Shown: positions 1,384 to 15,262 of the stretch, in pieces | Layout: every line of letters begins with the position of its first letter | Position numbering within the stretch: the stretch's first letter is position 1 | Source: Acidobacteriota bacterium | GTDB taxonomy: Bacteria; Acidobacteriota; Thermoanaerobaculia; Thermoanaerobaculales; Thermoanaerobaculaceae | DNA: 38,275 bases | Assembly (NCBI GenBank): GCA_004298115.1 | Contig: SCRJ01000200.1 | Location: 1-38,275, forward strand | Reading direction: 5' to 3' | Position numbers and translations under genes: made by a program | Notes under the pieces: generated by a model | Told to the model about the DNA's origin: nothing | The model's input: the letters and a program-made list of their open reading frames with translations, nothing else | Databases searched by the model: none

Positions 1384-1657
1384 GGTCGCGGATCCGGCGC
1401 GCGTCGGCCTTGCGGTGGCCGTGGCTCAAGATCGGGTTGGAACCGCCGCTCGAGTCGATCCGGATTTCCGCCCAGATGAGGCCGGTGTTGATGTTGACCG
1501 ACGCCACCTTGGAGATCGGGATGCTCTCCTCGTTGGCGCCGACCAGGCGCGGCTTGATGCGGGCGACCCGCTCCCGGCTGACCTCGATGCGGACGGGGAA
1601 CAAGTGGTTGCCGTGGGTCCAGCGGCTGGCTTTGAACACGGACGTCTCCTCGGGCAT
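1355..1657 (-). CDS. Small bacterial PH-like domain protein
   Basis: A 100-residue protein without signal peptide or membrane segment. Its pattern, a strand-rich body (IEVSRERVARIKPRL, ESIPISKVASVNINTG, WAEIRIDSSGG) ending in an amphipathic helix (DARRIRDLIEHFQEGS), fits the small bacterial PH/GRAM-like domains. That assignment rests on pattern and is not certain. In-frame starts exist at 1666 (GTG), 1663 and 1657 (ATG). I chose 1657 because a GGAGG Shine-Dalgarno (plus-strand 1666-1670) sits 8 nt upstream of it, while the other two would overlap that site. The 3' end runs 29 nt into the histidine kinase gene on the other strand. Such domains usually bind lipid or protein; the ligand here is unknown. 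Confidence 0.75.
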   Translation of the reverse strand: MPEETSVFKASRWTHGNHLFPVRIEVSRERVARIKPRLVGANEESIPISKVASVNINTGLIWAEIRIDSSGGSNPILSHGHRKADARRIRDLIEHFQEGS

Positions 1658-2022
1658 GGCCATCACCTCCGCGTCTCGCGCTGAAGGACACCGATCGTGT
1701 CGTGTGCGAGCGCATTCCCCGCGTGTCGCGGCGGCAGTCTATCCCCGGAATCGCGGTCCGTTCAAACCGCCGGCGCCGGGGTCCTCGCGGGAAGCCCCGC
1801 CAGGGTCGGGGCGGGACCGCAACGATGGCGACCGTCCGCGGGGCGCCCGGCGTGGCCGGGATCGGACTATCCGTCCCGCGCGCCGCGTTGTCACGCGGGG
1901 CGGCTCGGGGAAAGCCGACACGCCCCCGAACGACCCTCGCGGTCTATTCTTCGGAGATGGCCGCGGCCGGCTCGGGCGACGCGCGGCTTGACCGGCGCCG
2001 GACCCCTCGAGACGGAGAGCGC
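1658..2022. other. Intergenic region between divergent PH-like gene and lgt
   Basis: About 365 nt with no recognised gene. It must hold the promoter of the minus-strand PH-like gene and that of lgt. The only clear motif is a -10-like TATTCT at 1945-1950. Open frames crossing it on the plus strand lack Shine-Dalgarno sites and recognisable domains. Confidence 0.5.
1945..1950 (+). promoter_or_regulatory. Putative -10 element of lgt (TATTCT)
   Basis: TATTCT matches five of six bases of the sigma70 -10 consensus; no good -35 is visible 17 nt upstream. It lies 72 nt before the chosen lgt start, but only 6 nt before an in-frame ATG at 1957. A leaderless, N-terminally extended form of Lgt is therefore conceivable. 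Confidence 0.4.
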
Positions 2023-2892
2023 ATGTTTCCCATCGATCTGAACCTCGGGTTCAAGGTCTTCTACTACTACGAAGGCTTCTACTTCGTCATCGCGATCCTG
2101 GTGGCCTACCTCCTAGCCGTCGGGCGCGTGCGGCGGGCGGGCCTTGCGGTGCGTCTCTTCGAGGACGCGCTCGCCTGGGTCCTGCTGGGGGCGATCGTGG
2201 GGGCGAGGGTCTCGCACTTCGTCTTCTGGGACCTGCAATCCGTCCTCGCCGACCCGATGTCGTTCTTCCGCTTCTGGGACGGCGGGCTGTCGATCACGGG
2301 GGGCCTGGCGGGCGGGGTGCTGGCGGCGTTCCTCTTCTATCGCCGCCGCCACGCGGACTTCTGGGCCTACTTTGCGGCGGCCAGCCCGGCGATCCTCGCC
2401 GGACAGGCGATCGGCCGCGTGGGCTGCTTCCTGAACGGCGACGCATGGGGGATCCCCACGGCCCTGCCATGGGGGGTCTCCGAGCCGAAGTTCGGCACCC
2501 TCGTGCCCGGTTTCGTCCGCGATCACCTGGCGCCCAGCCAGGCGTGGGTCTGGAGCGTCAGCCACGGCTTCACGGACCCGTCGGCGACGACAACGGTCCC
2601 CCTGCACCCGACGCAGCTCTACGAGGCGGTCGGCGACCTGCTGCTGGCCTGGCTCGTGATCCGCCTCGTCCGATCGCTGGGCGGGGAGGACCGGTCCTTC
2701 GCGAAGGTATTCTGGCTCCACCTCGGGGGGTATTCCTTCCTGCGCTTCGCTCTGGAGTTCCTCCACGGCGACCGCGACGTCACGGTGTGGGCCGGGATGA
2801 CCGCCCTGCAAATCGGCCTGGTCGCGTTCGCGGCGCTGAGCGGGGTGCTCTACCTGAGGGTGGGCCGACGGGGCACGCTGGCGAGCGGGTGA
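2023..2892 (+). CDS. lgt: Phosphatidylglycerol:prolipoprotein diacylglyceryl transferase (Lgt)
   Basis: A 289-residue polytopic inner-membrane protein that transfers diacylglycerol from phosphatidylglycerol to the lipobox cysteine of prolipoproteins, the first step of lipoprotein maturation. Evidence is the Lgt signature region with GQAIGRVGCFLNGDAWG (family form GRxGNFxNxExxG), the preceding GGLSITGG, and the C-terminal HPTQLYEA followed by hydrophobic helices. Length matches the family. The start at 2023 has a GGAGAG Shine-Dalgarno 5-6 nt upstream and gives the family-like N-terminus MFPIDLNLGF. An in-frame ATG at 1957 would add 22 polar residues. The signature Asn is Cys-Phe-Leu-Asn here rather than Asn-Phe-x-Asn, a mild divergence. 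The gene stands alone and converges on the epimerase gene 15 nt away. Confidence 0.9.
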   Translation: MFPIDLNLGFKVFYYYEGFYFVIAILVAYLLAVGRVRRAGLAVRLFEDALAWVLLGAIVGARVSHFVFWDLQSVLADPMSFFRFWDGGLSITGGLAGGVLAAFLFYRRRHADFWAYFAAASPAILAGQAIGRVGCFLNGDAWGIPTALPWGVSEPKFGTLVPGFVRDHLAPSQAWVWSVSHGFTDPSATTTVPLHPTQLYEAVGDLLLAWLVIRLVRSLGGEDRSFAKVFWLHLGGYSFLRFALEFLHGDRDVTVWAGMTALQIGLVAFAALSGVLYLRVGRRGTLASG

Positions 2893-2907
2893 CCGCGCCG
2901 GCGCCGC

Positions 2908-3561
2908 CTACCGGCGCGGGGCGCGTGCGGCCATCGCACGAATCTGAGCGTTCTCGACGATGCACCCGCGCATCCTCTCGGCGGTGGCCTGCAGCATCGC
3001 GCGACCGAGGTCCTCGCCCGTGACGTACAGACTCCGGAACGGCCGCAGCAGCCGGAAGAGCGGCCGCAGCGCCTGGTACGGTCGCGGCGCGCTCGCGGAG
3101 GGCTCGCCGTCGATGACCGCCGGCCGCCAGCAGACGGCGCCGAACCTGTCGATCAGCTCGCGCTCGGTCTCGGCCTTCACGCGCGACCACATGAAGCGGC
3201 TGGCCGGGTTGGTGCCCTGGCCGCTGATGTAGTGGAACGCCGCAGCCGGGCTCGCCGCCCGCAGGGCGCAGGCGGCGGCCAGGGTGAGGTCGTGGGTGAC
3301 GGCCCGGTACGCGGCCTCGCCCCGGACCTGGGTCGCCGAGACACCGAGGCAGAACAGACAGGCATCGACCGCGGCGAACGCGTCCGACACCCGGGCGTAG
3401 TCCAGGTAGTCCTGATGGAGGAACGTGCGCAGCTTGGGGTGGGCGAGGGGGAGCGAACGGCGGGTGATCGCCCGCACCTCGCGCACGACCGGGGACGACA
3501 GGCTCGCGCGCAGAACGCTGCCTCCCGCGGAGCCGGTCGCGCCGAAGATCAGGACATTCAC
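2908..3561 (-). CDS. Rossmann-fold NAD(P)-binding epimerase/oxidoreductase-like protein
   Basis: About 217 residues. The N-terminus VNVLIFGATGSAGGSVLRA is a glycine-rich dinucleotide-binding loop (GATGxxGG) of the atypical short-chain dehydrogenase/NmrA-HTATIP2 type. CLFCLGVSATQ and FHYISGQGTNP, then WSRVKAETE, match the positions where this family has its LG-x-T loop, 'SS' strand and K-x-x-x-E helix. The classical catalytic YxxxK is replaced by a Trp-x-x-x-Lys-like segment, so enzymatic activity is uncertain. The start is GTG at 3561: a -10-like TACAAT lies 7 nt upstream (plus 3569-3574) and no Shine-Dalgarno is present, suggesting a leaderless mRNA; GTG at 3564 is the alternative. It is divergent from the SnoaL-like gene. 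The substrate is unknown. Confidence 0.8.
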   Translation of the reverse strand: MNVLIFGATGSAGGSVLRASLSSPVVREVRAITRRSLPLAHPKLRTFLHQDYLDYARVSDAFAAVDACLFCLGVSATQVRGEAAYRAVTHDLTLAAACALRAASPAAAFHYISGQGTNPASRFMWSRVKAETERELIDRFGAVCWRPAVIDGEPSASAPRPYQALRPLFRLLRPFRSLYVTGEDLGRAMLQATAERMRGCIVENAQIRAMAARAPRR

Positions 3562-3568
3562 CACGCCG

Positions 3569-3574
3569 ATTGTA
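3569..3574 (-). promoter_or_regulatory. -10 element TACAAT for the epimerase-like gene
   Basis: On the minus strand TACAAT (five of six consensus bases) ends 7 nt before the GTG at 3561. This places the expected transcription start at or next to the start codon. No convincing -35 is seen. Confidence 0.5.
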
Positions 3575-3695
3575 CGCGCCGCCCCGCGGCCCGGAGGGCG
3601 GAATTCGGCCGGCACCCGCGGCGTTCCCCTCTGCAACCGCCGACGACGCAAGGCAACGGAGTGTGGTTCGAGACGCTTGGAAAGGGGACACCGCA

Positions 3696-4187
3696 ATGAA
3701 GAAGGCACTCGTCGTGATGATCTCGCTCGCCCTGGCCGTTCCGGTCCTCGCTGCCGGCCGCGCCGCGGAGGAGACCGCCATCCAGCTGGTGTGGCAGCAG
3801 TTCTCGGACGCCTGGGCGCGGGGCGACGCGCGCGGCCGCGCCGCGCTGTGGGCCGAGGACGCGAGCCTCATCAACCCGTTCGGGGTCCAGGCGCACGGCC
3901 GGGCCGCGATCGAGAAGGTGTTCGAGCAGGAATCGGCAGGGTTCGCCAAGGGCACGACCCAGACGTTCTCCCACTTCTCGTACCGGTTCCTCACCCCCAG
4001 GATCGCCGAGGTGGACGCCACCGGCGAGATCGAGGGGATCAGCGGCGCCGACGGTGCGCCGCTGCCGACCATGACGGTCCACGTGTTCGCGATTCTGACC
4101 AAGACGCGCGGCACGTGGCGGATCAAGGACGCGCGGCCGTACGTGTTCGCCCAGCCGCCGGGCGCCGCGCCAGCCGGCGCGAAGTAG
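3696..4187 (+). CDS. Secreted SnoaL/DUF4440-like (SgcJ/EcaC type) protein
   Basis: A 163-residue protein with a cleavable signal peptide (MKKALVVMISLALAVPVLAA, cleavage near residue 20-23). The mature part has the NTF2-like cone pattern: QLVWQQFSDAWARGDA, then AALWAEDASLINPFG, GRAAIEKVFEQE, and late strands ending in TWRIKDARPYVF. This matches the SgcJ/EcaC and DUF4440 groups, which are mostly of unknown function, with some acting as small-molecule isomerases or binding modules. The start has an AAAGGGG Shine-Dalgarno 8 nt upstream. No obvious catalytic residues can be named. It is divergent from the epimerase-like gene and convergent with the alcohol dehydrogenase. Confidence 0.85.
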   Translation: MKKALVVMISLALAVPVLAAGRAAEETAIQLVWQQFSDAWARGDARGRAALWAEDASLINPFGVQAHGRAAIEKVFEQESAGFAKGTTQTFSHFSYRFLTPRIAEVDATGEIEGISGADGAPLPTMTVHVFAILTKTRGTWRIKDARPYVFAQPPGAAPAGAK

Positions 4188-4212
4188 GCCACGGCGACGT
4201 ATCGACCAGGCA

Positions 4213-4230
4213 GGCCGGCCCGCGCCGGCC
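4213..4230. terminator. GC-rich hairpin between convergent genes
   Basis: A 6-bp perfect stem GGCCGG/CCGGCC with a 6-nt loop lies in the 48-nt gap between the SnoaL-like gene and the alcohol dehydrogenase. It has no T-run on either side, so it is at best a weak or bidirectional terminator. Confidence 0.3.
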
Positions 4231-4235
4231 GCGCC

Positions 4236-5291
4236 TCAGGCTTGTTTCAGGCTCGCGGTGTCGATGACGAAGCGGTAGCGCACGTCGCCCTTGAGCATCC
4301 GCTCGTACGCCTCGTTGATCTTCTGGATCGGGATGATCTCGACTTCCGCGACGATCTGGTGCGCGCCGCAGTAGTCGAGGACCTCCTGCGTCTCGGCGAT
4401 GCCGCCGATGAGCGAGCCGGCGAGGCGCTTGTTCCCGCCGATCAGGGAGAAGGCGTTCACCGGCGTGGGCTGGGGCGGGACGCCGACGACCACCATCGTG
4501 CTCTGAGCCTTCAGCATCCCGAGGTACTTGTTGTAGTCGTGCGGGGCGGAGATCGTGTCGACGATCAGGTCGAACGTCCCGGCGAGCGTGGCGAACGTCG
4601 CCTCGTCCGAGGTGAGCGCGAACGCCCGCGCTCCCAGCCGTCGGGCGTCCTCCTCCTTGCGGCGGGATGTGCTCAGCATGGTGACCTCCGCGCCCATCGA
4701 GGCGGCGAGCTTCACCGCCATGTGGCCGAGGCCGCCCAGGCCCACCACGCCCACCCGGTCGCCCGCCTTGCAGTTCCACTGGCGCAGCGGGGAATAGGTG
4801 GTGATGCCGGCGCACAGGAGAGGGGCCGCGCCGGCCGGGTCGAGGCCCTCCGGCACCTTGAGCGTGAAGCGCTCGTCGACGACGACCTGGGTGGAGTAGC
4901 CCCCGAAGGTCGGCGTCGTGCGGTCCATCTCGGTCCCGTTGTAGGTGAAGGCGGCGCCCTTCCGGCAGAACTGCTCGAGGTCGCGGCGGCACGGGTCGCA
5001 CTCGCGGCACGAATCCACCATGCATCCGACGCCCGCCATGTCGCCCTTCTTGAACCGCGTCACGGCGGCGCCTGTCCCGACCACACGGCCGACGATCTCG
5101 TGCCCGGGCACCATCGGGAAGAGCGAGCCGCCCCACTCGTCGCGCACCTGGTGAATGTCGGAGTGGCAGACGCCGCAGAAGAGGATGTCGATGAGCACGT
5201 CGTGCGCCCCCGGCTCGCGCCGCTCGACGGTGAACGGCGTCAGTGGGGATTTCGCGGCGGCCGCCGCGTACGCTGGGACTTTGGTCGTCAT
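4236..5291 (-). CDS. Zinc-dependent NADP alcohol dehydrogenase (CAD/YahK-like)
   Basis: A 351-residue cytosolic medium-chain dehydrogenase that interconverts aldehydes and alcohols. Catalytic zinc ligands are Cys39 (FCGVCHSD) and His64 with Glu65 (PGHEIVG). The structural zinc loop has four cysteines in CMVDSCRECDPCRRDLEQFC. The cofactor site GLGGLGHMAVKLA is followed by STSRRKEEDARRLGA, where the Ser/Arg after the second strand favours NADP(H). Length and order match the cinnamyl-alcohol-dehydrogenase/YahK branch. The start at 5291 has a strong GGAGG site; an upstream GTG frame would add 13 residues but bypass that site. The gene is monocistronic and convergent with the preceding gene. Physiological substrate is unknown; detoxification of aldehydes is plausible. 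Confidence 0.93.
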   Translation of the reverse strand: MTTKVPAYAAAAAKSPLTPFTVERREPGAHDVLIDILFCGVCHSDIHQVRDEWGGSLFPMVPGHEIVGRVVGTGAAVTRFKKGDMAGVGCMVDSCRECDPCRRDLEQFCRKGAAFTYNGTEMDRTTPTFGGYSTQVVVDERFTLKVPEGLDPAGAAPLLCAGITTYSPLRQWNCKAGDRVGVVGLGGLGHMAVKLAASMGAEVTMLSTSRRKEEDARRLGARAFALTSDEATFATLAGTFDLIVDTISAPHDYNKYLGMLKAQSTMVVVGVPPQPTPVNAFSLIGGNKRLAGSLIGGIAETQEVLDYCGAHQIVAEVEIIPIQKINEAYERMLKGDVRYRFVIDTASLKQA

Positions 5292-5588
5292 GAGGTCTCC
5301 TCCGGTGTGCCGGCAAGCGTGTCGCGTCACCGCACGCCGCGTTCAACCAAGCCTACCACCGCGATCTTCCCACAGCGGCCGGCGTTGGGACGGAGCGGGG
5401 TGACCGGCACGCGCTCCCGCTCCTCCCGGAGCCGTGTCGCCGGGACGCCGCCGCTGACGGGGAAGCCGCGGGCGCGCGCCCGTCTCAGGTCGATTTTCGA
5501 TGGTGGCGACGTGCAGCCGGCGCTCGACCCGTGCCTCGATCGGGCGGTCGCGGCGACGCGCGCGGCGCGCCGCGACCGCCCGGACGGC
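5292..5588. other. Intergenic region upstream of the alcohol dehydrogenase
   Basis: Almost 300 nt with no supported gene. On the minus strand a -10-like TAGGCT (plus 5350-5355) about 60 nt before the dehydrogenase start could be its promoter; no matching -35 is visible. Nothing else is recognised. Confidence 0.4.
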
Positions 5589-5981
5589 TCACCGGCGCCA
5601 GTGGCGGAGCCGCGCGGGGCGGCGCATCTCCCAGTGCGGTCTCGGACCCGGGACCCACACGCGCACGTACGACACGGGCGGCGCGACCACCACCGGGGCG
5701 GCGGTCACGTAGCCCCCGTAGTACGGCGCGTAGCCCGGCGCGTAGTACGGCGTGTAGGCCGGCGCGTAGTAGCGGTTGACGTTGCAGCCGGCGGCGTAGG
5801 GCGCGTAGTACGGCGCCACCGGCCGGGCGTTCCCGATCGAGACGACCAGCGGCGGCACCACCACCGCGGCGCCGAAGCCGATCCGGACGCCCCAACCGGC
5901 CTGCGCCGGGGCCGCCGCGACGAGGCCCACAGCGACCGCCGCGGCCGCGAGTGAGGTGCGAAGGATCCCTGTGGTCGGCAT
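5589..5981 (-). CDS. Secreted Tyr/Pro/Ala repeat protein
   Basis: 130 residues with a signal peptide (start MPTTGILRTSLAAAAVAVGL, cleavage after AQA near residue 28). The mature protein has a short hydrophobic segment (IGFGAAVVVPPLVVSIG) and then a low-complexity region with repeated YYAP/APYY units (APYYAPYAA, YYAPAYTPYYAPGYAPYYGGY), ending in a basic tail (MRRPARLRHWRR). A GAGGGGG Shine-Dalgarno 7-8 nt upstream supports the start at 5981. Similar Tyr/Pro-rich exported proteins are common and uncharacterised; adhesion or envelope association is only a guess. Confidence 0.72.
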   Translation of the reverse strand: MPTTGILRTSLAAAAVAVGLVAAAPAQAGWGVRIGFGAAVVVPPLVVSIGNARPVAPYYAPYAAGCNVNRYYAPAYTPYYAPGYAPYYGGYVTAAPVVVAPPVSYVRVWVPGPRPHWEMRRPARLRHWRR

Positions 5982-6035
5982 GTCTGTGTCCCCCTCGACT
6001 CCGCGAAGGAGCAAGTTCGATGCCAACGCTGAGCC

Positions 6036-6053
6036 ACCTGAGAGGCGTCAGGT
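6036..6053. repeat. Inverted repeat ACCTGA-N6-TCAGGT
   Basis: A perfect 6-bp inverted repeat with a 6-nt spacer, 55 nt upstream of the Tyr/Pro-rich gene start. It could be an operator or a hairpin in the 5' leader; no binding protein can be named. Confidence 0.3.
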
Positions 6054-6067
6054 CGCGCCGGCCGCGA

Positions 6068-6086
6068 GCCCGGGTGTCACCCGGGC
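6068..6086 (-). terminator. Hairpin downstream of the CPCC protein gene
   Basis: An 8-bp perfect stem GCCCGGGT/ACCCGGGC with a 3-nt loop lies 46 nt after the stop of the minus-strand CPCC gene. There is no U-tract, so intrinsic termination is not assured. Confidence 0.35.
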
Positions 6087-6131
6087 GATGCGGGTGCTCT
6101 CGGCGGAGGTCGGCCCGGGCGGCGGCGCCGC

Positions 6132-6506
6132 TCAGGGGGCGGGGGGAGGGGAGAGCCAGTAGGGCTCCGGGTCGCCCAGCAGGGCGGGATCGAGGTAGCA
6201 CACCGCCGACGCCATCTCGGTCCCCGACGGCCGCGGGCTCTCGCCCGGGGCGAGCGGCCGCCACCGCGGGTCGCGTTGCAGGCGCCTGGCGGCGGCCGCG
6301 GCTTCCGTGGCGGCGGCGCGGGCGCTCGCTTGCGCCAGGCGGAGCGAGAGCCCCGGGTTCTCCCCCTCGGTCGAGTCGGGGTGGGCGAGCTGGAGCGGAT
6401 CGTTGCGCCAGCCGCACAACGGGCAGACGCGGTGCCAGCCGGGGCCGTCGCCGAGCGCCATGAACCCGCATGCCGGGCAGGTGCCGCCGGGTTTCCCAGT
6501 GCTCAT
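6132..6506 (-). CDS. CPCC family cysteine-rich (zinc-ribbon) protein
   Basis: About 124 residues. The N-terminal part has two Cys-x-x-Cys knuckles, TCPACGF and VCPLCGWRND, followed by DPLQLAHPDSTEGENPGLSL and an AQASARAAATE helix. This is the layout of the CPCC family (CPCCGY ... CPVCFWEDD ... GGANxxSLxxAQxN), whose function is unknown but which likely binds zinc. The C-terminal 60 residues are Ala/Arg/Pro-rich and not recognisable. The start is uncertain: ATG at 6506 lacks a well-spaced Shine-Dalgarno, and an in-frame GTG at 6521 would add five residues. Confidence 0.75.
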   Translation of the reverse strand: MSTGKPGGTCPACGFMALGDGPGWHRVCPLCGWRNDPLQLAHPDSTEGENPGLSLRLAQASARAAATEAAAAARRLQRDPRWRPLAPGESPRPSGTEMASAVCYLDPALLGDPEPYWLSPPPAP

Positions 6507-6568
6507 CCCAAAGGTCAACACAGCCGCGCGGCGATTTGTTCACGCCGCTCGGGCCCGGGACGGGCGCT

Positions 6569-7099
6569 CTACTTCGACGGCTGGCTCGACGGCGGCGTCA
6601 TGCCCTTCAGGCGCATGTAGGTGACGATGTTGCCGTAGTGCTCCCAGTCGTGGGTGAGGTTGATGAGAAGGCCCTCGAACTTCGGGTGATCCTTGCCGAA
6701 GATCTTCATCGTCTTGTGGGCCTCGGCGTCGGGGATGGCGTACGCCAAGGTGCACATGGCCGACGAGCCCTTGAGCGCCTCGACGATGGCGGCCTTCGTG
6801 GTCCTCGTCTTCTCCACGTCGGGGGACGGGTTCGGCTTGCCCAGCACGCGCGAACAGAACGTGTACTGGCTGTCCGCGACGTGAGCGACGATCTCGCCGA
6901 AGCTGCGCACCTCGGGCGTCGGCTTGAACGAATAGTCGGCCTCCGGCACCTGCTCCGCGGCCTTGGTGATGAAGCCGTCGACGTAGGTGTACGACCCGCG
7001 CAACATGCCCACCGCTCCGGAAGCCGAGGGCGCCTTCATGCCCTGGCCGAAGACCGGGGCGGCGACAGCCACGAGCAGAACCGACAGTGTCTTCTTCAT
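6569..7099 (-). CDS. Exported DinB-like (DfsB/DUF664-type) four-helix metal-binding protein
   Basis: A 176-residue protein with an N-terminal signal sequence (MKKTLSVLLVAVAAPVFGQG). The mature part follows the DinB superfamily: YVDGFITKAAEQVPEADYSFKPTPEVRSFGEIVAHVADSQ spans the first helices with a metal-ligand His (IVAHVADSQ). A late helix with LTHDWEHYGNIVTYMRLKG supplies two further His. These three His are where the family binds a divalent metal, often nickel or zinc. Many members are thiol transferases; the substrate here is unknown. Export is less usual for a family that is mostly cytosolic. A strong AAAGGAG site 7 nt upstream fixes the start. Confidence 0.87.
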   Translation of the reverse strand: MKKTLSVLLVAVAAPVFGQGMKAPSASGAVGMLRGSYTYVDGFITKAAEQVPEADYSFKPTPEVRSFGEIVAHVADSQYTFCSRVLGKPNPSPDVEKTRTTKAAIVEALKGSSAMCTLAYAIPDAEAHKTMKIFGKDHPKFEGLLINLTHDWEHYGNIVTYMRLKGMTPPSSQPSK

Positions 7100-7278
7100 C
7101 GCGTTCTCCTTTGTATCGAGGGTAACGCCGGCGCGTGCAGGGCTGATTCCCGCTCCGGGCGCGGGCGAGGCGCGATCGGTGTGACGCCGCCGCCGTGCCT
7201 CTGGCGCGCCCCAGGAAGGCGTCCGCGGCGTTGGCGTCGGGATCGGCCACCGGCCGGCGGTGTGCGATAGTTCGGCGC

Positions 7279-7749
7279 ATGAGCGACGTCCAGCCCACCT
7301 CCCGCTACTGCTTCGTGTGCGGCCGCGACAACCCGGCGAGCCTCGGCGTCCGCTGGAGGAACGACCCCGGCGCGAGGCAAGTCCGCGCGGTCGTCACCGT
7401 GCGCGAGGAGTACAACGGCTACCCCGGCATCGTCCACGGCGGCGTCGTCGCCGCGCTGCTCGACGAGACCGCCGGGAGGGCGTTGATGGTGGACGGCGAC
7501 TTCGAGCGGCTGTGGGTGACGGTCAAGCTGGAGGTCACGTACCGCCGCCCCACCCCGACGGGCGTGCCGCTCACGGTCGTCGGCTGGGTCGAGCGCGAGG
7601 ACGCCCGCCGCTCCACGACCGCGGCCGAGATCCGCCTCCCCGACGGCGAGGTCACCGCGAGATGCAAGGCGCTGATCGCCCGCCCGCCCGAGACGCTGCT
7701 TGAGGGCTGGCTCGCCGAGCGCGAGCACTGGCGCGTCGACCCGGAGTAG
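7279..7749 (+). CDS. PaaI-like hotdog-fold acyl-CoA thioesterase
   Basis: 156 residues, cytosolic. The segment YNGYPGIVHGGVVAALLDETAGRA is the hotdog-fold PaaI/YdiI signature (HGG then ALLDE helix), and KLEVTYRRPTPTGVPLTVVGWV is the typical central strand pair. An N-terminal CFVCGRDNP motif is seen in many members of this subgroup. Such enzymes hydrolyse acyl-CoA thioesters; specificity cannot be read. The start ATG at 7279 has no Shine-Dalgarno. A weak GATAGT element (7266-7271) ends 7 nt upstream, so a leaderless mRNA is possible. It is divergent from the DinB-like gene and convergent with the antiporter gene. Confidence 0.88.
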   Translation: MSDVQPTSRYCFVCGRDNPASLGVRWRNDPGARQVRAVVTVREEYNGYPGIVHGGVVAALLDETAGRALMVDGDFERLWVTVKLEVTYRRPTPTGVPLTVVGWVEREDARRSTTAAEIRLPDGEVTARCKALIARPPETLLEGWLAEREHWRVDPE

Positions 7750-7915: not shown

Positions 7916-9184
7916 CTACCGCGGCGGCTCGGGCCGGGGCGGGCGCCATCGCCCGCGCAGCAGGCGCTGCATCAGGGGTCCGCTGAGCATCGAGGTCACG
8001 AGCGCCATCACGACCAACGCGACGAAGAGCGACTCGCCGATCACACCGCGTTGCAGGGCGACCAACCCGAGGATGATTTCCATCCCGCCCCGGGCGTTCA
8101 TCGCGGCCGCGACGGCCCACGCCTCGCGCGGCGGCATGCCGGCGAGCCGGGCCGCCGCGCCGGCGCCGGCGAACTTGCCGACACACGCCAGCGCCAGCAC
8201 GCTCAGCACGAGGGCGGCGTCGAACGAGCGCGCGAAGTCGACGCGCAGGCCGATGCTGGCGAAGAACAACGGGGCGAAGAGGTAGGAGGCGAACCGCTCG
8301 GTCGTCTCCCGCATCTCGTGGCCGAAGTGCTCGCAGTCGCCGAGGGCGATCCCGACCAGGAACGAGCCGAACACCGCGTGGACGCCGATCCACTCCGCGA
8401 CCGCCGCCGCGAAGAAGGCGAGGGCGAGGGAGAAGCCCAGCACCCCGCCTGGCCAGGAGAAGTGGCGCTGCACCCAGCGCAGGTGGCGGTGGATCGCCCA
8501 ACGACCGACGGTGAGCATCAGCAGTGCGAAGCCGATGGTGAGCGCGATGGTCGACCCGACCGAATGCCGAACCGCCCCGCCGCGACCCATCAGGGCCAGC
8601 ACGATGCCAAAGACGAACCAACCGGCGAGGTCGTCCACCATCGCCGCCGCGACCGTAACCTGGCCAACGTCGGTGCGGAAGAGGTCGAGATCCATCAGCG
8701 TGCGGGCGATGACCGGCAGCGCCGAGATCGCGAGCGCGACGGCGAAGAAGAGGGCGGGGGCGAGCGAGTCCTGCCCGGGTTGGCGCCCCAACAGACCGGG
8801 CGCGGCGAATACGGTCGCGAACCCGAGGGCAAACGGCACGGCGAGACCGCCGGCGCTCACGGCCACGGCGACCCGGCCGAGGCGCAGGACCCGGAACAGA
8901 TCGACCTCCATCCCGGCCACGAGGAGGAAGAGCACGATCGAAACGGCGGCGATCCCGTCCAGGACCGGGCCGAGCCCGCCGTGCGTTGGGAAGATCGCCG
9001 CTTCGGCGGCCGGGGACACCGCGCCCAGGACCGTGGGCCCGAGCACGACCCCGGCGAGAATCTCGCCGACGACGGCGGGCTGCCCGAGCGTGCGTGACAA
9101 CTCGCCCAGAAGCCGCGCGAGCGCGAGCAGCACGCCCAGCGCCAGCAGCAGGGCGGTGATGTCCTCCGGCTGAAGTGTCGCCAT
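7916..9184 (-). CDS. CPA2-family cation:proton antiporter
   Basis: 422 residues with about 12-13 hydrophobic segments across the whole length and no C-terminal RCK/TrkA domain. The segment GQPAVVGEILAGVVLGPTVLG is the hallmark start of CPA2/Kef-type exchangers. AAAMVDDLAGWFVFG carries the conserved Asp-Asp pair used for ion/proton exchange, and NARGGMEIILG is the C-terminal signature. It should exchange Na+ or K+ for H+ at the inner membrane; ion specificity is not deducible. ATG at 9184 has AGGAG a few nt upstream. It diverges from the SulP transporter gene across 148 nt, suggesting shared regulation of ion and bicarbonate/sulfate transport. Confidence 0.93.
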   Translation of the reverse strand: MATLQPEDITALLLALGVLLALARLLGELSRTLGQPAVVGEILAGVVLGPTVLGAVSPAAEAAIFPTHGGLGPVLDGIAAVSIVLFLLVAGMEVDLFRVLRLGRVAVAVSAGGLAVPFALGFATVFAAPGLLGRQPGQDSLAPALFFAVALAISALPVIARTLMDLDLFRTDVGQVTVAAAMVDDLAGWFVFGIVLALMGRGGAVRHSVGSTIALTIGFALLMLTVGRWAIHRHLRWVQRHFSWPGGVLGFSLALAFFAAAVAEWIGVHAVFGSFLVGIALGDCEHFGHEMRETTERFASYLFAPLFFASIGLRVDFARSFDAALVLSVLALACVGKFAGAGAAARLAGMPPREAWAVAAAMNARGGMEIILGLVALQRGVIGESLFVALVVMALVTSMLSGPLMQRLLRGRWRPPRPEPPR

Positions 9185-9310
9185 GGCTCCTGAGCTCCTT
9201 CGCGCCGTCCAGGGAAGTTTGGAGCGTCCATGCCAACAAATCGGCCCACCGGTGTCAAGCGGGCGAGTCGGCCGCGTGACGGGGCGGCGCCGGGGGAACC
9301 TATGCATTGC

Positions 9311-9316
9311 TATGCT
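9311..9316 (+). promoter_or_regulatory. Putative -10 element TATGCT of the SulP gene
   Basis: TATGCT lies 16 nt before the SulP start codon and just ahead of its GGGAGA Shine-Dalgarno. This predicts a very short leader of roughly 10 nt. No clear -35 is present. Confidence 0.4.
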
Positions 9317-9332
9317 TGGCGCGGGGAGATCG

Positions 9333-11465
9333 ATGAACCTCAGCGGGACACTGGTATCGGCGGGCCGGCGCTTCGCGCGGCCGCTCGAGATCGTCAGAGG
9401 CTACCGCCGCGCCGACCTGCCGGCGGACGTCGCGTCCGGCGTCACGGTGGGGCTGATCTCGATCCCGCAGGGCATCGCCTTTGCGGCGATCGCCCACCTG
9501 CCCCCTTCCGCGGGGCTCTACTCGGCGGTGGTCGCCGGGATCGCCGGGGCGCTCTGGGGTTCCTCCCGCCACCTCGTCACCGGGCCGAGCACGGCGGGGT
9601 CGATCCTGCTGTTCTCGATCCTGGTCCCGCTCGTCCCCGTCGATTCGCCGGACTTCCTCGCCGCCGCGGCGTTGATGGCCGTCTTCGTCGGGCTCTACCG
9701 CATCGGCTTCGGGCTCGCGGGCCTCGGGGCCCTCGTCAACATCGCGTCGCGCGCGGTGCTCCTCGGCTTCACCACCGGGATCGCCGCCCTCATCGGCTTC
9801 GGCGAGCTGGTCAACGTCCTGCGGCTGCCGCTCCACCGCTCGCCGAGCTTCCTCGCCAACCTCGCGGGCGTGCTCACCGACCTGGGCCAGGCCCACCTCC
9901 CCAGCGCGGCGATCGGCCTCGCGACGATCGCGGTCGTGCTCGTGCTCGGCCGCATCGACCGGCGCGTCCCGGGGCCGCTGATGGCGCTCATCGCCGTCAG
10001 CGCGGGCGTGGCGTGGCTGGGCGCGGCTCGGCTCGGCGTCGAGACCTCCGGCGAGGTGCCGCGCGCGCTGCCGGAGCTCTCGCACTTCCCCCTCGAACAC
10101 CTGGCGGCGACCGGCGTGCTGCCGCAGCTCGTCGTCGGCGGGCTCGCGGTCGCGCTGCTCGGCCTGTTCGAGGCGGTGTCGATCGGCCGGGTCGCGGCGA
10201 CCGCCGGCGGGGAGCGGCTCGACGTCAACCAGGAGCTCATCGGCCAGGGGATGGCGAACCTCGCCGCCGGGGTCTTCTCCGGCTACCCCTGCTCCGGCTC
10301 GTTCAACCGCACCGCCGTCAACCTCGAATCCGGGGGCCGCACCCAGCTCGCGTCCGTGTTCGCCGGCGTGTTCATCCTGGGCGCGATCCTCGCCTTCGGG
10401 CCCTACACGGCCCTGCTCCCCAAGCCGGCGATCGCCGGCCTCCTGATCGTGGCGGCGGGGAGCCTCGTCGACCGGGCCGGGATCCGCCGGGTCTTCCGCA
10501 CCTCCCAGAGCGAAGGGGTGATCCTCGTCATCACGTTTCTCGCCACGCTGTTGCTCCCGCTCGAGTTCGCCGTGCTGTCGGGGGTGATCCTCTCCCTCGG
10601 CCTGTACATCTACCAGTCCACCATGCCGACGGTGGTCCCGGCCGTTCCCGACGAGGAGTTCCGCCACCTCGTGGAGCGCGCCGGCGCGCCGGCTTGCCCG
10701 CAGCTCGCGGTGATGAGCGTCCGCGGGTCGCTGTTCTTCGGAGCGGCGCAGCACGTCGAGGACGCGCTGCTCGGGAACCTGGGCGAGAACCCGGGCCAGA
10801 ACCTCCTGTTGCTGCGGCTCCACGGCGTCGACCGCTGCGACGTCGCCGGCGTCGAGGCGCTCGAGCGCGTCGTGCGCGCCTACCGCGACCGCGACGGCGA
10901 CGTCTTCCTCGTCCGCGTCCGCATGCCGGTGCAGGAGATCTTCGACAGATCCGGCTTCTCCGCGTACCTCGGGCGCGACCACGTGCTGCAGCAGGAAGAG
11001 GCGATCGACTGGCTGTTCGAGGAGCGCATCGACCCGGCCGTGTGCATCTACGAGTGCGAGCAGCGCGTCTTCGCCGAGTGCCAGGCGCTCGAGAAGCACC
11101 ACTACGACGCGGCCCTGCCGGCGTACGTGCCGCGCGACCGGCACCCCATCTGCCACCTCTCGGTCGAGCAGTTCGAGCAGGCGCTGCGCGCGCATCGGGG
11201 CCGCGCCGAGTTGCTCGACGTGCGCGAGCCGGACGAGTTCAGGCGGGGCCACATCCCCGGGGCGCGGCTATTGCCGCTGCGGACCATCATGTCCGAGGCG
11301 CCCGGCCTCTCGCGCGACCGCCCGATCCTCCTGGTCTGCCGCTCGGGCCGGCGCTCGACGCGGGCGATGCACTGGCTGCTCGACCTCGGCTTCGAGCGCG
11401 TCTGCAACCTCAAGGGCGGCGTGCTCTCCTGGCGTGCGCGCGGCCGGCCGCTGGTCGTCGAGTAG
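9333..11465 (+). CDS. SulP-type anion transporter with STAS and C-terminal rhodanese domains
   Basis: 710 residues. Residues 1-430 are a SulP/SLC26 membrane domain with the N-terminal signature (DVASGVTVGLISIPQGIAFA), SSRHLVTGPSTAGSI and the downstream GYPCSGSFNRTAVN segment. About 460-585 form a cytoplasmic STAS domain (QLAVMSVRGSLFFG, LRLHGVDRCDVAGVEAL). A Cys-containing linker (ICIYECEQR-like, ECQALEKHH) leads to a rhodanese domain at about 607-710 with ELLDVREPDEFRRGHIPGA and the active-site loop CRSGRRS (Cys669). SulP proteins move sulfate, bicarbonate or other anions, often with Na+ or H+. The rhodanese part suggests a sulfur link, but this is inference. Start ATG 9333 has GGGAGA 4-6 nt upstream. 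Confidence 0.93.
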   Translation: MNLSGTLVSAGRRFARPLEIVRGYRRADLPADVASGVTVGLISIPQGIAFAAIAHLPPSAGLYSAVVAGIAGALWGSSRHLVTGPSTAGSILLFSILVPLVPVDSPDFLAAAALMAVFVGLYRIGFGLAGLGALVNIASRAVLLGFTTGIAALIGFGELVNVLRLPLHRSPSFLANLAGVLTDLGQAHLPSAAIGLATIAVVLVLGRIDRRVPGPLMALIAVSAGVAWLGAARLGVETSGEVPRALPELSHFPLEHLAATGVLPQLVVGGLAVALLGLFEAVSIGRVAATAGGERLDVNQELIGQGMANLAAGVFSGYPCSGSFNRTAVNLESGGRTQLASVFAGVFILGAILAFGPYTALLPKPAIAGLLIVAAGSLVDRAGIRRVFRTSQSEGVILVITFLATLLLPLEFAVLSGVILSLGLYIYQSTMPTVVPAVPDEEFRHLVERAGAPACPQLAVMSVRGSLFFGAAQHVEDALLGNLGENPGQNLLLLRLHGVDRCDVAGVEALERVVRAYRDRDGDVFLVRVRMPVQEIFDRSGFSAYLGRDHVLQQEEAIDWLFEERIDPAVCIYECEQRVFAECQALEKHHYDAALPAYVPRDRHPICHLSVEQFEQALRAHRGRAELLDVREPDEFRRGHIPGARLLPLRTIMSEAPGLSRDRPILLVCRSGRRSTRAMHWLLDLGFERVCNLKGGVLSWRARGRPLVVE

Positions 11466-11668
11466 CCGGCGGCCAACCGCGGGAGCCGGCGGGTCTGGCG
11501 GCCGACGGCGTCCTCGAGCGCGATAGACCGCTCGCCGACACCTTCGAGCACGACCGGGCGCCGCTGCCGGCCGCCGCACGCGTGGCGCTCGGACTCGCGC
11601 CCGATGCAACATCGAGGACGCGATCGCTGGTCTGCGGGGGCGGTGGAACGAATGGGGGTTTCTCCAGA

Positions 11669-11698
11669 CCCGTTGGCCGTGAAAGAAGGTCGGGGAGG
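11669..11698 (+). repeat. 30-nt direct repeat, copy 1
   Basis: Runs from CCCGTTGGCCGTGAA to GGTCGGGGAGG. It matches 27 of 30 positions with the copy at 11751-11780; spacing between copies is 82 nt. Confidence 0.75.
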
Positions 11699-11725
11699 CC
11701 CCGGGAGCCTCCGTTCGTTCCCTAC

Positions 11726-11744
11726 GCCAGACCTGGTACCCAAA
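11726..11744 (+). repeat. Partial copy of the 33-nt dispersed element
   Basis: GCCAGACCTGGTACCCAAA matches 18 of 19 positions of the right-hand element at 13087-13119 (minus strand). It lies between the two 30-nt direct repeats. Confidence 0.65.
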
Positions 11745-11750
11745 CCCAGG

Positions 11751-11780
11751 CCCGTTTGCCGTGAATCAAGGTCGGGGAGG
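11751..11780 (+). repeat. 30-nt direct repeat, copy 2
   Basis: Runs from CCCGTTTGCCGTGAA to GGTCGGGGAGG, differing from copy 1 at three positions. It is followed 17 nt later by the full 33-nt element. Confidence 0.75.
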
Positions 11781-11797
11781 ACCCCGAGGAGACCGGC

Positions 11798-11830
11798 TTT
11801 GTCAACAGTGCCGGACCTGACACCCAAATC
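11798..11830 (+). repeat. 33-nt dispersed element, left inverted copy
   Basis: Begins TTTGTCAACAG and ends ACCCAAATC. It matches 29 of 33 positions of the minus-strand copy at 13087-13119. The two copies face each other 1.26 kb apart around the secreted-protein gene at 12190-12696. The element runs directly into the receiver remnant, so the junction may be a recombination or insertion scar. Confidence 0.7.
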
Positions 11831-11974
11831 CTCACGTCCGGCTACGCCGAGGACGAGGCCGTGCGGCGCGGCGTCACGGCCGGAGACGTGAGGTTCCTCC
11901 AGAAGCCGTTCAGCATGGAAGCGCTGACCCGTGAGGTGCGCACGGCGCTCGAGGAGCAGAAGGACCCGGGATAG
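11826..11974 (+). pseudogene. Remnant of a response-regulator receiver domain (C-terminal third)
   Basis: From codon 11828 the frame reads ILTSGYAEDEAVRRG and then FLQKPF before a TAG at 11972-11974. This is the alpha4-beta5-alpha5 end of a receiver domain, including the conserved Ser/Thr-switch region and Lys. It matches 22 of 28 residues of the corresponding part of the kinase at the window start (residues about 378-404). The phospho-acceptor Asp and everything before it are missing; the sequence just upstream is the 33-nt repeat. No start codon or Shine-Dalgarno is placed for it. It is read as a decayed fragment of a paralogous hybrid kinase or regulator. Confidence 0.8.
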
Positions 11975-12189
11975 GACTCGACGCGAGCGCGCGCGCCGGG
12001 TCCCCGTCTCGCGCACCCGTCCCGCTCGCGTCCCGAGGTCCCGTGTTGCCCATCCTCAACCGCGATGAGCGTGACGCCTCCGCCTCGAACACCGGATGGG
12101 GTCGGATCCAAGCGGGCGCCTGGAGCGCTGCCGAGCGGTGCGCGCCGGCGGACTGCGATGCAAAGCCGAACCGCAGGGACGGCCACGCG

Positions 12190-12696
12190 TCAGGGCGTCC
12201 CCGCCGCCTTCTTGGCCTGGGCCCGCTCCCACGCCCGCTGCTCGTTCAGGATCCCCTTGGAGACGAGAGTCACGTAGCCCACCTTCCCGACCGGGTCGAA
12301 GTGGAGGACGATGGCCGTCACGCCGCCGACCCAGAGACGGTGCTCCACGGACTTGTTCGGCTGGGTGCCGCTGTCGAACTTCTCCGTGAAGGTGTCCAGG
12401 ATACACTTGTAGTTGTCGAGCCCGCGGAACGCCACGCGCACGTCGGACAGCCTCCCCTGCCAGAACCCGTACTCCACGCTCTCGAGCTTCGCGCACCCCA
12501 GCTTTGGGGAGTCCTCGGGGTCCTCGTAGAGCCGGATGCCGCCGAAGGTGGGGTCGGTCTCGACCGGCAACCCCCACGCGGGCGGGGGAGACATCCCCCA
12601 CTCGTGGCCGCGGAAGCCCGGCTCCTCGTTCTGGTAGGCGCCCGCCGCCGCCGCCATGACCGCCACCGCGAAGACCGCCAACACGCGCTTCTTCAT
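12190..12696 (-). CDS. Secreted protein of unknown function
   Basis: 168 residues with a signal peptide (MKKRVLAVFAVAVMAAAAGA). The mature part opens FRGHEWGMSPPP and has GGIRLYEDPED, KLESVEYGFWQGRLSDVRV, a helix with ILDTFTEKF, and VEHRLWVGGVTAIVLHFDPVGKVGYV. This 'FRGxxWG...GI.LY...D...ESVEYGFW.G.L' plan recurs in small exported proteins of environmental bacteria whose function is unknown to me. A GGGGGG-type Shine-Dalgarno precedes ATG 12696. The C-terminus is charged (WERAQAKKAAG). The gene lies alone between two inverted copies of the 33-nt element, in a region otherwise full of decay. Confidence 0.8.
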   Translation of the reverse strand: MKKRVLAVFAVAVMAAAAGAYQNEEPGFRGHEWGMSPPPAWGLPVETDPTFGGIRLYEDPEDSPKLGCAKLESVEYGFWQGRLSDVRVAFRGLDNYKCILDTFTEKFDSGTQPNKSVEHRLWVGGVTAIVLHFDPVGKVGYVTLVSKGILNEQRAWERAQAKKAAGTP

Positions 12697-13086
12697 CCCG
12701 CCCCCCGTTTCCTCGCCGCGCCAGGCCGCTCCGGGGCCCGAGACCCTCACGGTCGCCGTGGCTGAGCGAGAGGGCCCCTCGGCCGCCTTCGTGTCTTGTA
12801 CTCCCTTTTCGCGAGGTAATCCATGCGGCGAACGCGCCGGAGCCGCCCCGGTGGCCGGCGTCCGTACCTCACCTTCCTCGGTCTCGGCTGGCCCCGAGCC
12901 GGCCGAGCGACTCTTCCGAGGCGAGCCGCCTTTCGTGGCATGACGCTTCCGCACGTTTCCACTCGTTGGTCCGCGCCAGGTCCGGTTTCGCAACGCCCGG
13001 GTCGATAAGCACGCCAGCTGCCACGTTGACCACGCGCAGGCCATCCACCTCGATCCCGGGATGCACGGAACCCATCTGGGTTTCTC
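12697..13086. other. Intergenic stretch upstream of the secreted-protein gene
   Basis: About 390 nt without a supported gene. Several frames stay open on the minus strand but show no domain, no Shine-Dalgarno and Arg/Pro/Gly-rich translations typical of non-coding GC-rich DNA. The right inverted repeat and then tRNA-Leu follow. Confidence 0.5.
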
Positions 13087-13119
13087 GATTTGGGTACCAG
13101 GTCCGGCATAGTTGACAAA
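13087..13119 (-). repeat. 33-nt dispersed element, right inverted copy
   Basis: On the minus strand it begins TTTGTCAACTA and ends ACCCAAATC, with a central GGTACC. It is in inverted orientation to the copy at 11798-11830 (29 of 33 identical). It sits 32 nt from the 3' end of the tRNA-Leu gene, a typical place for inserted sequences. Confidence 0.7.
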
Positions 13120-13150
13120 CTCACGGCCCGGGCGCGGGCCGCAGATCGGG

Positions 13151-13236
13151 TGGTGCCGGAGGAGGGGGTCGAACCCTCATGCCCTTGCGGGCCCGGGATT
13201 TTAAATCCCGTGCGTCTGCCATTTCGCCACTCCGGC
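13151..13236 (-). tRNA. tRNA-Leu (anticodon UAA)
   Basis: On the minus strand the 86-nt sequence folds as a class II tRNA. The acceptor stem is GCCGGAG/CTCCGGC with discriminator A and an encoded CCA (plus 13151-13153). The anticodon arm is CGGGA-TTTAAAA-TCCCG, giving anticodon UAA, which reads UUA. The long variable arm is GGCCCGCAAGGGC-like, and the T arm is GAGGG-TTCGACC-CCCTC. In such GC-rich DNA UUA codons should be rare, so this tRNA may also serve UUG by wobble. Confidence 0.96.
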
Positions 13237-13313
13237 GTGGAGCGCACCGCGGGCCGCACGCGCCGGCCCGGCGGGGTCTTGGTGACGGTCGTTTCCGGTC
13301 CCGCGGTCAGGCG

Positions 13314-14438
13314 TCAGGAGTGCATCAGCGCCGCGACCTCGGCGACCGCGCGTAACGCCTCGGCGGCGGGGCCGTCCACGACCTCGACGTGGCCGCCGCG
13401 CTCGAGCACGGCGCGCGCCATGCGGTCGACCATGTGCGGCTCCGCGTCGACCTTCTTGCCGCACACCGGGCAGCGCTCGTCGGCGGGGTCGAAGAGCATG
13501 TTGCAGCCGTTGCAGATGCCGCCTTCGAGCGCGACCCCCTGCAGGTACACGAGCTTCCAGACGCGCCCTTCGTTGATCGCTTCCAGCGTCGCGGCGAGGC
13601 CGGCGACGGCGCGGCCGCCCTTGCGGACCTCCTTGAGCAGCTCGCGCACGACCTCCAGCTCCTCGGCGCGCTCGAGCCGCGTCTGCACCTCGCCGGCACG
13701 CGACAGGATGGCGTCGGTGGTCGCGGTGACCGGGATCGGCAGCACCTCGACGAGGCGGCCGCGCAGGCGCTTCGGCAGGGCGCGGGCGAGCTCCGAGGCG
13801 ACGCCGACGTTGCCGCCGATGATGAGGCGGTCCACCTCGAGCTGTTCCATCAGGCGGGCGATTTCGCCGGCGACCAGGCGGACGTGGGTGGAGACGCTCT
13901 CGTCGTGGTGGCGCTCCATCTTCGACTGCGAGCGGAGCTTGTCCGAGGTAGGCGAGTCCGGGCGGGGCGGGACCGAGGAGATGAGGTCCTTGTGCTCCTC
14001 GATGTCGCCGAGGAACACGGTGAACAGGCGCGCCCGCTTCTGATCGACGAGGACGATGCCGAAGCGCTCGTGCTCGTCCAGCGCTTCGAGGAGCGGGCGC
14101 AGGAACGCCCCGTTGCTCCAGTAGGCGAAGGACGGCATCGTGATGCGGACGACCTTGCGGAAGCTGACTCCGAGCGGGCGGTGCCGGGCGAGCACGAAGG
14201 TCTTTCCCGTCGGCTCGATGGTCTTGACGATCTCCTCGACCTCGCCGCAGGTGAGCGCCAACTCGTCGTCGTCAGGGTTCGCCGCCCGCAGCTGCTTGAG
14301 CATGTCCTTGAGGTGCGTCTCGAACTGGCGCTTGCGGTTGGCGGCGTTGGTCTGGTCCACGTCGAGGTAGACGGTCAGGGTCTTGCCCGGCGCCTGGGAG
14401 AGCTGCTGCAACTGCTCGATGTCACGATGTCGGATCAC
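13314..14438 (-). CDS. Bacterial eRF1-like (baeRF-type) protein with zinc knuckle
   Basis: 374 residues, cytosolic. It has the build of bacterial relatives of archaeal/eukaryal release factor 1: an N-terminal domain (1-130), a central RNase-H-like eRF1 domain 2 (FGIVLVDQKRARLFTVFLG, then RLIIGGNVGVASELARALP near 204-223), and an L7Ae-like domain 3 (KGGRAVAGLAATLEAINEG, VWKLVYLQG). A four-cysteine knuckle follows (Cys309, 312, 323, 326). The catalytic GGQ loop of eRF1 is not seen; the equivalent loop reads SQSKMERHHDES. A role in ribosome rescue or peptidyl-tRNA hydrolysis is therefore plausible but unproven. The GTG start at 14438 overlaps the upstream methyltransferase stop (GTGA), with GGGAGG ahead of it, indicating translational coupling. 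Confidence 0.82.
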   Translation of the reverse strand: MIRHRDIEQLQQLSQAPGKTLTVYLDVDQTNAANRKRQFETHLKDMLKQLRAANPDDDELALTCGEVEEIVKTIEPTGKTFVLARHRPLGVSFRKVVRITMPSFAYWSNGAFLRPLLEALDEHERFGIVLVDQKRARLFTVFLGDIEEHKDLISSVPPRPDSPTSDKLRSQSKMERHHDESVSTHVRLVAGEIARLMEQLEVDRLIIGGNVGVASELARALPKRLRGRLVEVLPIPVTATTDAILSRAGEVQTRLERAEELEVVRELLKEVRKGGRAVAGLAATLEAINEGRVWKLVYLQGVALEGGICNGCNMLFDPADERCPVCGKKVDAEPHMVDRMARAVLERGGHVEVVDGPAAEALRAVAEVAALMHS

Positions 14439-15262
14439 CGCGGCCTCCCTTTCCTATACTGCGATTCAAGTATAGGTGACCCCGCAACCCCCGCCAGCGA
14501 GGCCAGGATGACCGCGGCGGTGGCGCCGACGTTGAGCGACTCGACGCCATCGTCAAGCGGGACTGAGACTTGGCCCGAGCACCCCGAGGCGACCTCGGGC
14601 GAGACTCCCTGGCCCTCGTTGCCGAGCGCGAGCAGCAGCGGCGAGCGCGGGCGCCAGCGCGGCAGCGGCACGCCGGTGCGGCTCGCGGTCGCGACCACCT
14701 CGCCGCCGGCCCGCCGCACCGCGTCGGCCAGCGGCGCGAACGCGGCCTCGGCCTGGACGGGGAAGACGAGGGACTGGCCCGCGGAGGCGCGCACCGCGCG
14801 CGGCGAGAAGGGGTCGGCGCAGCCCGGGGAGCACGCCACGCCCGAGGCTTTGAACGCCGCGGCGCAGCGGATCACCGAGCCCACGTTGCCGGGGTCCTGG
14901 ACGCGGTCGAGGTAGACGACGACGCCGGCGGGCGCGAGACGGGCGCTCGGTAGCGCCACGACGGCCAGGACGCCCTGGGTCTGGCGGGTCGGCGCGATCT
15001 GCGCGGCCGTCGCGGCGTCGAGGAGGTGCACCCGGCCGGCGAGGACGACCTGCTCGATCTCGGGGCTGGCCCGCAACGCCCCGAGCTGCTCCGCAACGGT
15101 GAACAGCTCGACGATCGGAACGCCGGCGGCCGCGAGGTCGAGCGTGAGCTTGAGCCCGTCCACCGCCGTGAGCTCGGGCTCCTGGCGGGCGATGATGCGG
15201 CGAAGGCGCGCGACGCGGGGGTTGTGCCGGCCGAGCAGCTGCGGCGACCCGGTCTCACGCAT
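14435..15262 (-). CDS. TrmH/SpoU-family RNA 2'-O-methyltransferase
   Basis: 275 residues. The C-terminal SPOUT domain carries the three signatures: motif 1 DRVQDPGNVGSVIRCAAAF, motif 2 LALGNEGQG, and motif 3 SVPLDDGVESLNVGATAAVI. The knot region should bind SAM, and Asn and Arg of motif 1 and Ser/Asn of motif 3 are the catalytic positions. The N-terminal 100 residues (HNPRVARLRRIIARQ...) look like the RNA-binding substrate domain of the RlmB/TsnR-like group. The likely product is a ribose-methylated rRNA or tRNA; the target site is unknown. The start ATG 15262 lacks a strong Shine-Dalgarno and overlaps the stop of a possible 12-codon upstream frame. Its stop overlaps the eRF1-like gene by 4 nt. 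Confidence 0.9.
   Translation of the reverse strand: MRETGSPQLLGRHNPRVARLRRIIARQEPELTAVDGLKLTLDLAAAGVPIVELFTVAEQLGALRASPEIEQVVLAGRVHLLDAATAAQIAPTRQTQGVLAVVALPSARLAPAGVVVYLDRVQDPGNVGSVIRCAAAFKASGVACSPGCADPFSPRAVRASAGQSLVFPVQAEAAFAPLADAVRRAGGEVVATASRTGVPLPRWRPRSPLLLALGNEGQGVSPEVASGCSGQVSVPLDDGVESLNVGATAAVILASLAGVAGSPILESQYRKGRPR
14453..14476. repeat. Perfect inverted repeat CCTATACT-N8-AGTATAGG
   Basis: Both 8-bp arms are exact reverse complements. The site is inside the last codons of the methyltransferase gene, 15-38 nt before the eRF1-like start, and contains a TATACT -10-like sequence on either strand. It may mark an internal promoter/operator or an mRNA hairpin near the coupled start. Confidence 0.45.

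Follow-up and report, generated by a model that had tools for sequence, protein, structure and literature searches.

Probable TIRYT-type terminal inverted repeats around a secreted-protein gene beside tRNA-Leu in an Acidobacteriota genome

TIRtrons, or TIRYTs, are described in the text of PMC3733652 as RAYT-like genes bracketed by terminal inverted repeats (TIRs) and accompanied by dispersed TIR families, one group of them being made up of Acidobacteria. According to the text of a later classification, most TIRYT belong to subclass 2.1 of the TnpA-Y1 proteins, which has C-terminal HTH-like domains (PMC6006769). Here we analyse a pair of inverted 33-nt repeats around a single gene next to tRNA-Leu in a window of 38,275 nt, which is the entire contig C67 of a 3.97-Mb genome in 203 contigs. 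The finding is mostly ordinary in kind: the repeats are best read as TIRs of a TIRYT family beside a tRNA hotspot.

The repeat pair and its surroundings

A reading of the window from sequence only had noted two inverted arms of 33 nt, and these are real. The copies at 11798-11830 (+) and 13087-13119 (-) are separated by 1256 nt and agree at 29 of 33 positions (88% complementary). The same reading correctly saw one reading frame between the repeats, with a signal-peptide-like start (by eye), no transposase anywhere in 11798-13119, and a tRNA-Leu gene alongside (Table 1). A third copy, which it had called partial and placed at 11726, is confirmed at 11714-11741 on the same strand as the copy at 11798; it is full-length but degenerate (PWM score 16.8). 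Overlooked at that stage was the organisation of the left side, which consists of two tandem units of ~82 bp, each closing with a TIR copy, and includes a 39-nt direct repeat (11664-11702 and 11746-11784, 87% identical). Both units have homologues in G003, at L057/L123:4845-4935 for the first (81%) and L123:4846-4927 for the second (82%). A loose scan of the window with 15-mers and 3 mismatches was discarded, as it stayed at chance level (30 found vs 32.45 expected). Further along the window, at 36263-36645, Rfam places an RNase P RNA of class A (RF00010, 258.9 bits).

Table 1. Features around the repeat pair (positions in the window).
Feature	Position	Strand	Basis or remark
SulP permease with STAS and rhodanese domains, left neighbour	9183..11465	+	domain match
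First tandem ~82-bp unit, degenerate miniature (REPIN/MITE-like) element	11658..11745	+	TIR copy 11714-11741
Second tandem unit, closing in the left 33-nt TIR	11746..11830	+	repeat search
Response-regulator receiver domain, C-terminal fragment (ILTSGYAEDE...FLQKPFS...)	11828..11974	+	truncated at TIR end
168-aa predicted secreted protein, accessory gene	12190..12696	-	orthologues only in G003 and G005
Right 33-nt TIR, singlet, 31 nt past the tRNA-Leu 3' end	13087..13119	-	38.8 bits
tRNA-Leu (TAA)	13151..13236	-	ARAGORN and Rfam
baeRF family 10 gene, conserved neighbour of the tRNA	13314..14438	-	domain match

The left TIR runs directly into the remnant of a receiver gene. Homologues in G001, G004 and G003 (L086, L087, L088) match from precisely 11828, and upstream of that point they extend as an intact receiver domain; this start persists when the query, which had begun at 11828 in an earlier search, is begun at 11781. 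Hence the receiver gene is cut off at the edge of the TIR, its remaining part being absent. Searched by itself, the remnant matches proteins with receiver domains weakly, in every case below cut-off. The recombination scar proposed by the sequence-only reading is borne out by this truncation exactly at the repeat together with the gene turnover beside the tRNA. An IS66-like fragment (by eye) in G003 (C117) is likewise broken off at a TIR doublet. This site was considered as a candidate empty site, but the matches stop at the left edge of the doublet (query 436) and never resume behind it, which indicates truncation and gives neither an empty site nor a target duplication.

Spread of the repeat and copies that carry a transposase

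The repeat is not a product of chance, since its 25-nt core occurs 9 times in the genome at up to 3 mismatches and the reversed control 0 times. Nor is it confined to the window: a search of the whole genome yields 14 matches at E<=0.01. The consensus is GTCAACTNTGCCGGACCTGGTACC. For a sequence model of 33 positions the training set was 22 copies drawn from 7 of the genomes, and these copies match by construction. The model has a match in 12 of the 39 genomes searched. Nine of them (G000, G001, G002, G003, G005, G007, G008, G009 and G015) contain at least 3 matches, and three distant genomes have a single marginal one each. By pattern search the element is present in 9/59 genomes, i.e. the own genome and 8 relatives, with 0 in the controls.

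In two relatives a transposase gene is flanked on either side by the window's own TIR (G009 C23: TIR- at 1998, gene 3013-2045, TIR+ at 3060; G015 C176: TIR- at 2952, gene from 3018, TIR+ at 4000), with GGTACC or GGTGCC outermost. A truncated transposase gene in G007 (L099) has the TIR at its start side only. On C115 of the own genome, near 3624, a remnant whose start and end residues resemble those of a transposase precedes a copy of this TIR (by eye). Moreover the own genome carries two Y1_Tnp genes. The suggestion of non-autonomous mobile-type DNA, with RAYT-type transposases encoded elsewhere in the genome, stands as far as the repeats are concerned. Both RAYT genes are intact but bear another TIR; an intact transposase with precisely the TIR variant of the window was not found in the own genome, which counts against the explanation we prefer.

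Y1_Tnp genes are present in 16 of 18 genomes searched, many of them flanked by inverted repeats with GGTACC or GGTGCC outermost and an inner sequence specific to the element. From 31 RAYT loci entered, 25 had a usable match and flanks of sufficient length, and 6 were left out. Matching inverted ends of any element type reach a score of at least 11 at 18 of the 25 testable loci vs 71/600 mispaired controls, a control figure that is inflated because related elements share ends. Among the 7 loci below this score are L010 (score 9), from the own genome, and, in G007, L099 with its truncated gene. Both transposase proteins tested, the one from G009 and one from the own genome, match NCBIfam NF047646, 'REP-associated tyrosine transposase' (85.6 and 84.7 bits, cut-off 80), and the Y1_Tnp domain is found in 4/4 proteins scanned. 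Judging from these sequences, the 33-nt element appears to be the TIR of RAYT-like Y1 transposase elements.

Orientation was evaluated for 95 matches (E<=1e-3). A copy reading GTCAAC...GGTACC from left to right is termed '+', such that transposase elements are '- gene +'. All 5 pairs of inverted neighbours within 150 bp show this transposon layout ('-+'; 0 '+-'), 4 of them in G003, where the TIR starts are 58-61 nt apart, and two more '-+' but no '+-' pairs follow at 151-400 bp. Neighbours in the same direction within 150 bp (5 '++', 4 '--') are arranged as in tandem arrays. Short doublets of ~85 bp overall as well as singlets are scattered through the genomes. At 401-3000 bp we count 6 '+-', 4 '-+' (two of which are the transposase elements), 4 '--' and 1 '++'. 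The pair in the window is '+-', hence its ends face inward, with GGTACC on the inner side and opposite to the transposase-bearing copies.

The single TIRs of the window fold no better than shuffles (z = 0.62 and 0.51), and a hairpin formed by one TIR was dropped as unsupported. Its two tandem units are no better than shuffles either (z = -0.46 and 0.51). Both results count against our preferred explanation. The inverted doublet of G003 C180 folds with z = -5.05. REP-type repeats influence transcripts. Considering this effect and the copy only 31 nt behind the tRNA, the repeats might be signals for transcription termination or RNA processing, retained by the host near genes, rather than mobile DNA. 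We regard this as extremely unlikely: besides the poor folding of single copies, no tRNA is found in 10 other repeat loci scanned, and the repeat occurs at the ends of transposases and borders the broken IS66-like gene.

The secreted-protein gene and the tRNA-Leu flank

The orthologues of the 168-aa protein are 70-71% identical to it, and the 39 genomes searched hold one further, distant match at 26%. The protein has neither a Pfam nor an NCBIfam match. The G003 orthologue lies in the locus syntenic to the window but in a different order, the G005 orthologue on a contig that lacks the tRNA. At the nucleotide level, homology surrounding the gene covers at most 12185-12938 and ends at least 149 bp short of the right TIR and 355 bp short of the left TIR. 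A TIR bracket around the gene is present at 1/3 orthologue loci. However, each of the three orthologues has some TIR within about 0.4 kb, which counts against our preferred explanation; such proximity in 3/3 cases is commoner than copy number alone suggests, though G000 and G003 share one locus.

The sequence-only reading had suggested, as one possibility, that the two repeats are the ends of one non-autonomous cassette. In such a cassette a RAYT-type transposase encoded elsewhere would move the secreted-protein gene as cargo. The near-identical inverted ends enclosing one accessory gene and the RAYT genes in the genome would suit such a cassette. So would the six '+-' pairs, which are spaced by 1.0-2.3 kb, come from six different genomes among the 9 carriers, that of the window included, and enclose one or a few accessory genes. 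Against this, the inward-facing ends are the reverse of the transposase-bearing copies, i.e. the outer ends of the transposon are not outermost, and pairs at 0.4-3 kb are without marked orientation bias. With ~1 gene per kb any such pair spans a gene, and the segment is a mosaic that includes the receiver-gene fragment. Since moreover the bracket is conserved at a single orthologue locus and the gene homology falls short of both repeats, the reading as a cassette bounded by these ends fails, and we consider it very unlikely. Among the 39 genomes searched neither the same bracketed unit at another locus nor an empty site was found; no empty site was found for either TIR copy of the window, which leaves mobility there unproven and counts against our preferred explanation.

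Accessory genes between TIRs are observed elsewhere as well. In G015 (L125:29-1509) inward-facing TIRs enclose a gene for a Gp49-like toxin together with an HTH gene, which likely form a toxin-antitoxin pair. In G002 C179 (L128:1685-3602) two TIR doublets of ~276 bp flank one predicted exported protein gene in a composite-transposon-like manner.

TIRYT doublets might pair as a composite element, [- +] gene [- +], whose outer '-' and '+' move an accessory gene. The window would then be a decayed case lacking the outer right TIR. G002 C179 shows exactly this arrangement, and if the reading were true, the accessory genes moved would be secreted proteins and toxin-antitoxin pairs. We regard the TIRs near all three orthologues and the six gene-enclosing '+-' pairs as expected from intergenic insertion in variable regions, yet because of them we keep a small probability for composite elements.

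The baeRF gene adjoins tRNA-Leu across the genus, while the content past the tRNA varies by genome. A protease-like gene (by eye) follows within ~30-50 bp in G002 and G005, and a transposase gene at ~1.1 kb in G004. The stretch past the tRNA extends for 8.5 kb in G001 and 6.0 kb in G003 and reaches a direct repeat of the tRNA 3' part, of 55 nt and 84% identity in G001 (L077:3341-3423 and 11842-11896) and of 51 nt and 98% in G003 (L057:1442-1527 and 7497-7547). Outside the variable stretch, G003 is colinear with the window (window positions 1343-7148 and 13141-14674). The tRNA-Leu(TAA) flank thus represents a gene-turnover hotspot in the genus.

In G003 the baeRF tail, tRNA-Leu and a TIR occur a second time (L123:2194-2593), with N's inside the tRNA. 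This may be a tandem duplication or an assembly artefact and was kept out of the main evidence. As in the window, where a TIR starts 31 nt past the tRNA 3' end, a TIR also lies behind both extra tRNA ends of G003 (L123:2559 and 7579). The spacers between tRNA end and TIR are identical to that of the window (TIR 13087-13119) at only 14-18 of 31 positions, and the TIR at L123:7579 is weak (PWM 20.2) and absent from the match list of the sequence model.

The direct repeats of the tRNA 3' part in G003 and G001 are as expected after integration by a tyrosine integrase. The segment may accordingly be a decayed genomic island at tRNA-Leu, with TIRs that arrived with the island or landed later. In the G003 stretch the secreted-protein gene indeed occupies the inner end, in a locus syntenic with the window on both sides. 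We consider an island possible but rather doubtful, as no comparable tRNA fragment was detected on the far side in the window and no integrase is among the 10 ORFs scanned in the G003 and G001 stretches. It is compatible with the following explanation and does not exclude it.

Very probably the two sites in the window are stray TIRs of the TIRYT type, derived from independent insertions in the tRNA-Leu hotspot, and the gene is a bystander rather than cargo bounded by TIRs. The parent element would consist of a Y1/HUH transposase gene between two TIRs whose outermost bases are GGTACC (or GGTGCC). Its transposase would have moved these copies by single-strand transposition, and doublets would be transposase elements that suffered a deletion. 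On the left, one doublet-derived element presumably was duplicated in tandem; on the right, a solitary TIR sits just behind tRNA-Leu. Left and right TIRs probably arrived or decayed independently in the gene-turnover hotspot downstream of the tRNA, an order of events that is inferred. The secreted-protein gene and the receiver-domain remnant would both be bystanders of the hotspot.

Taken together, the analysis extends the little-studied TIRYT group of Acidobacteria by one specific TIR family with its transposases, and it documents copies of the repeat next to a gene-turnover hotspot at tRNA-Leu. A single gene lying between inverted repeats, as this case warns, is not necessarily a cassette; a quick and telling check is to compare the orientation of the repeats with that in a copy that carries the transposase.

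Comparison with REPINs and TIRYTs

Several traits resemble REPINs and RAYTs as described in the text of PMC3116915: inverted doublets (with a fold better than shuffles in G003 C180, though not in the two window units), singlets read as decayed doublets, the association with RAYTs and insertion beside existing copies. Copy number differs, with at most 25 per genome here, in incomplete assemblies, vs about a thousand in the genome of PMC3116915. REP repeats of the GTAG type are palindromic whereas the single repeat here is not, as the fold scores of the window TIRs indicate, and no GTAG-type tag of REP/REPIN is seen.

The features of TIRtrons/TIRYT are found instead: a bracketed Y1/HUH RAYT-like gene, a REP-associated tyrosine transposase and dispersed TIR copies. 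As in the text of PMC3733652, the Y1 gene lies within element-specific TIRs, and dispersed copies are single, dimeric or grouped. Unlike a TIRtron, the window has TIRs without a transposase. The motif GGGGWSAS, given there for some but not all TIRtron TIRs, is absent from the consensus, and the TIRs here begin with GGTACC/GGTGCC. This particular repeat was not seen in passages of PMC3733652 and PMC6006769, and we make no claim of its being unpublished. Long proteins (322-341 aa) and a C-terminal HTH-like region, seen as weak HTH_IclR and HTH_23 matches below cut-off in 2/4 proteins, are shared with TnpA-Y1 subclass 2.1 as characterised in the text of PMC6006769. The transposases probably belong to the TIRYT class and resemble subclass 2.1 in these features. 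Overall, the element matches the TIRtron/TIRYT class as the text of PMC3733652 describes it from Acidobacteria.
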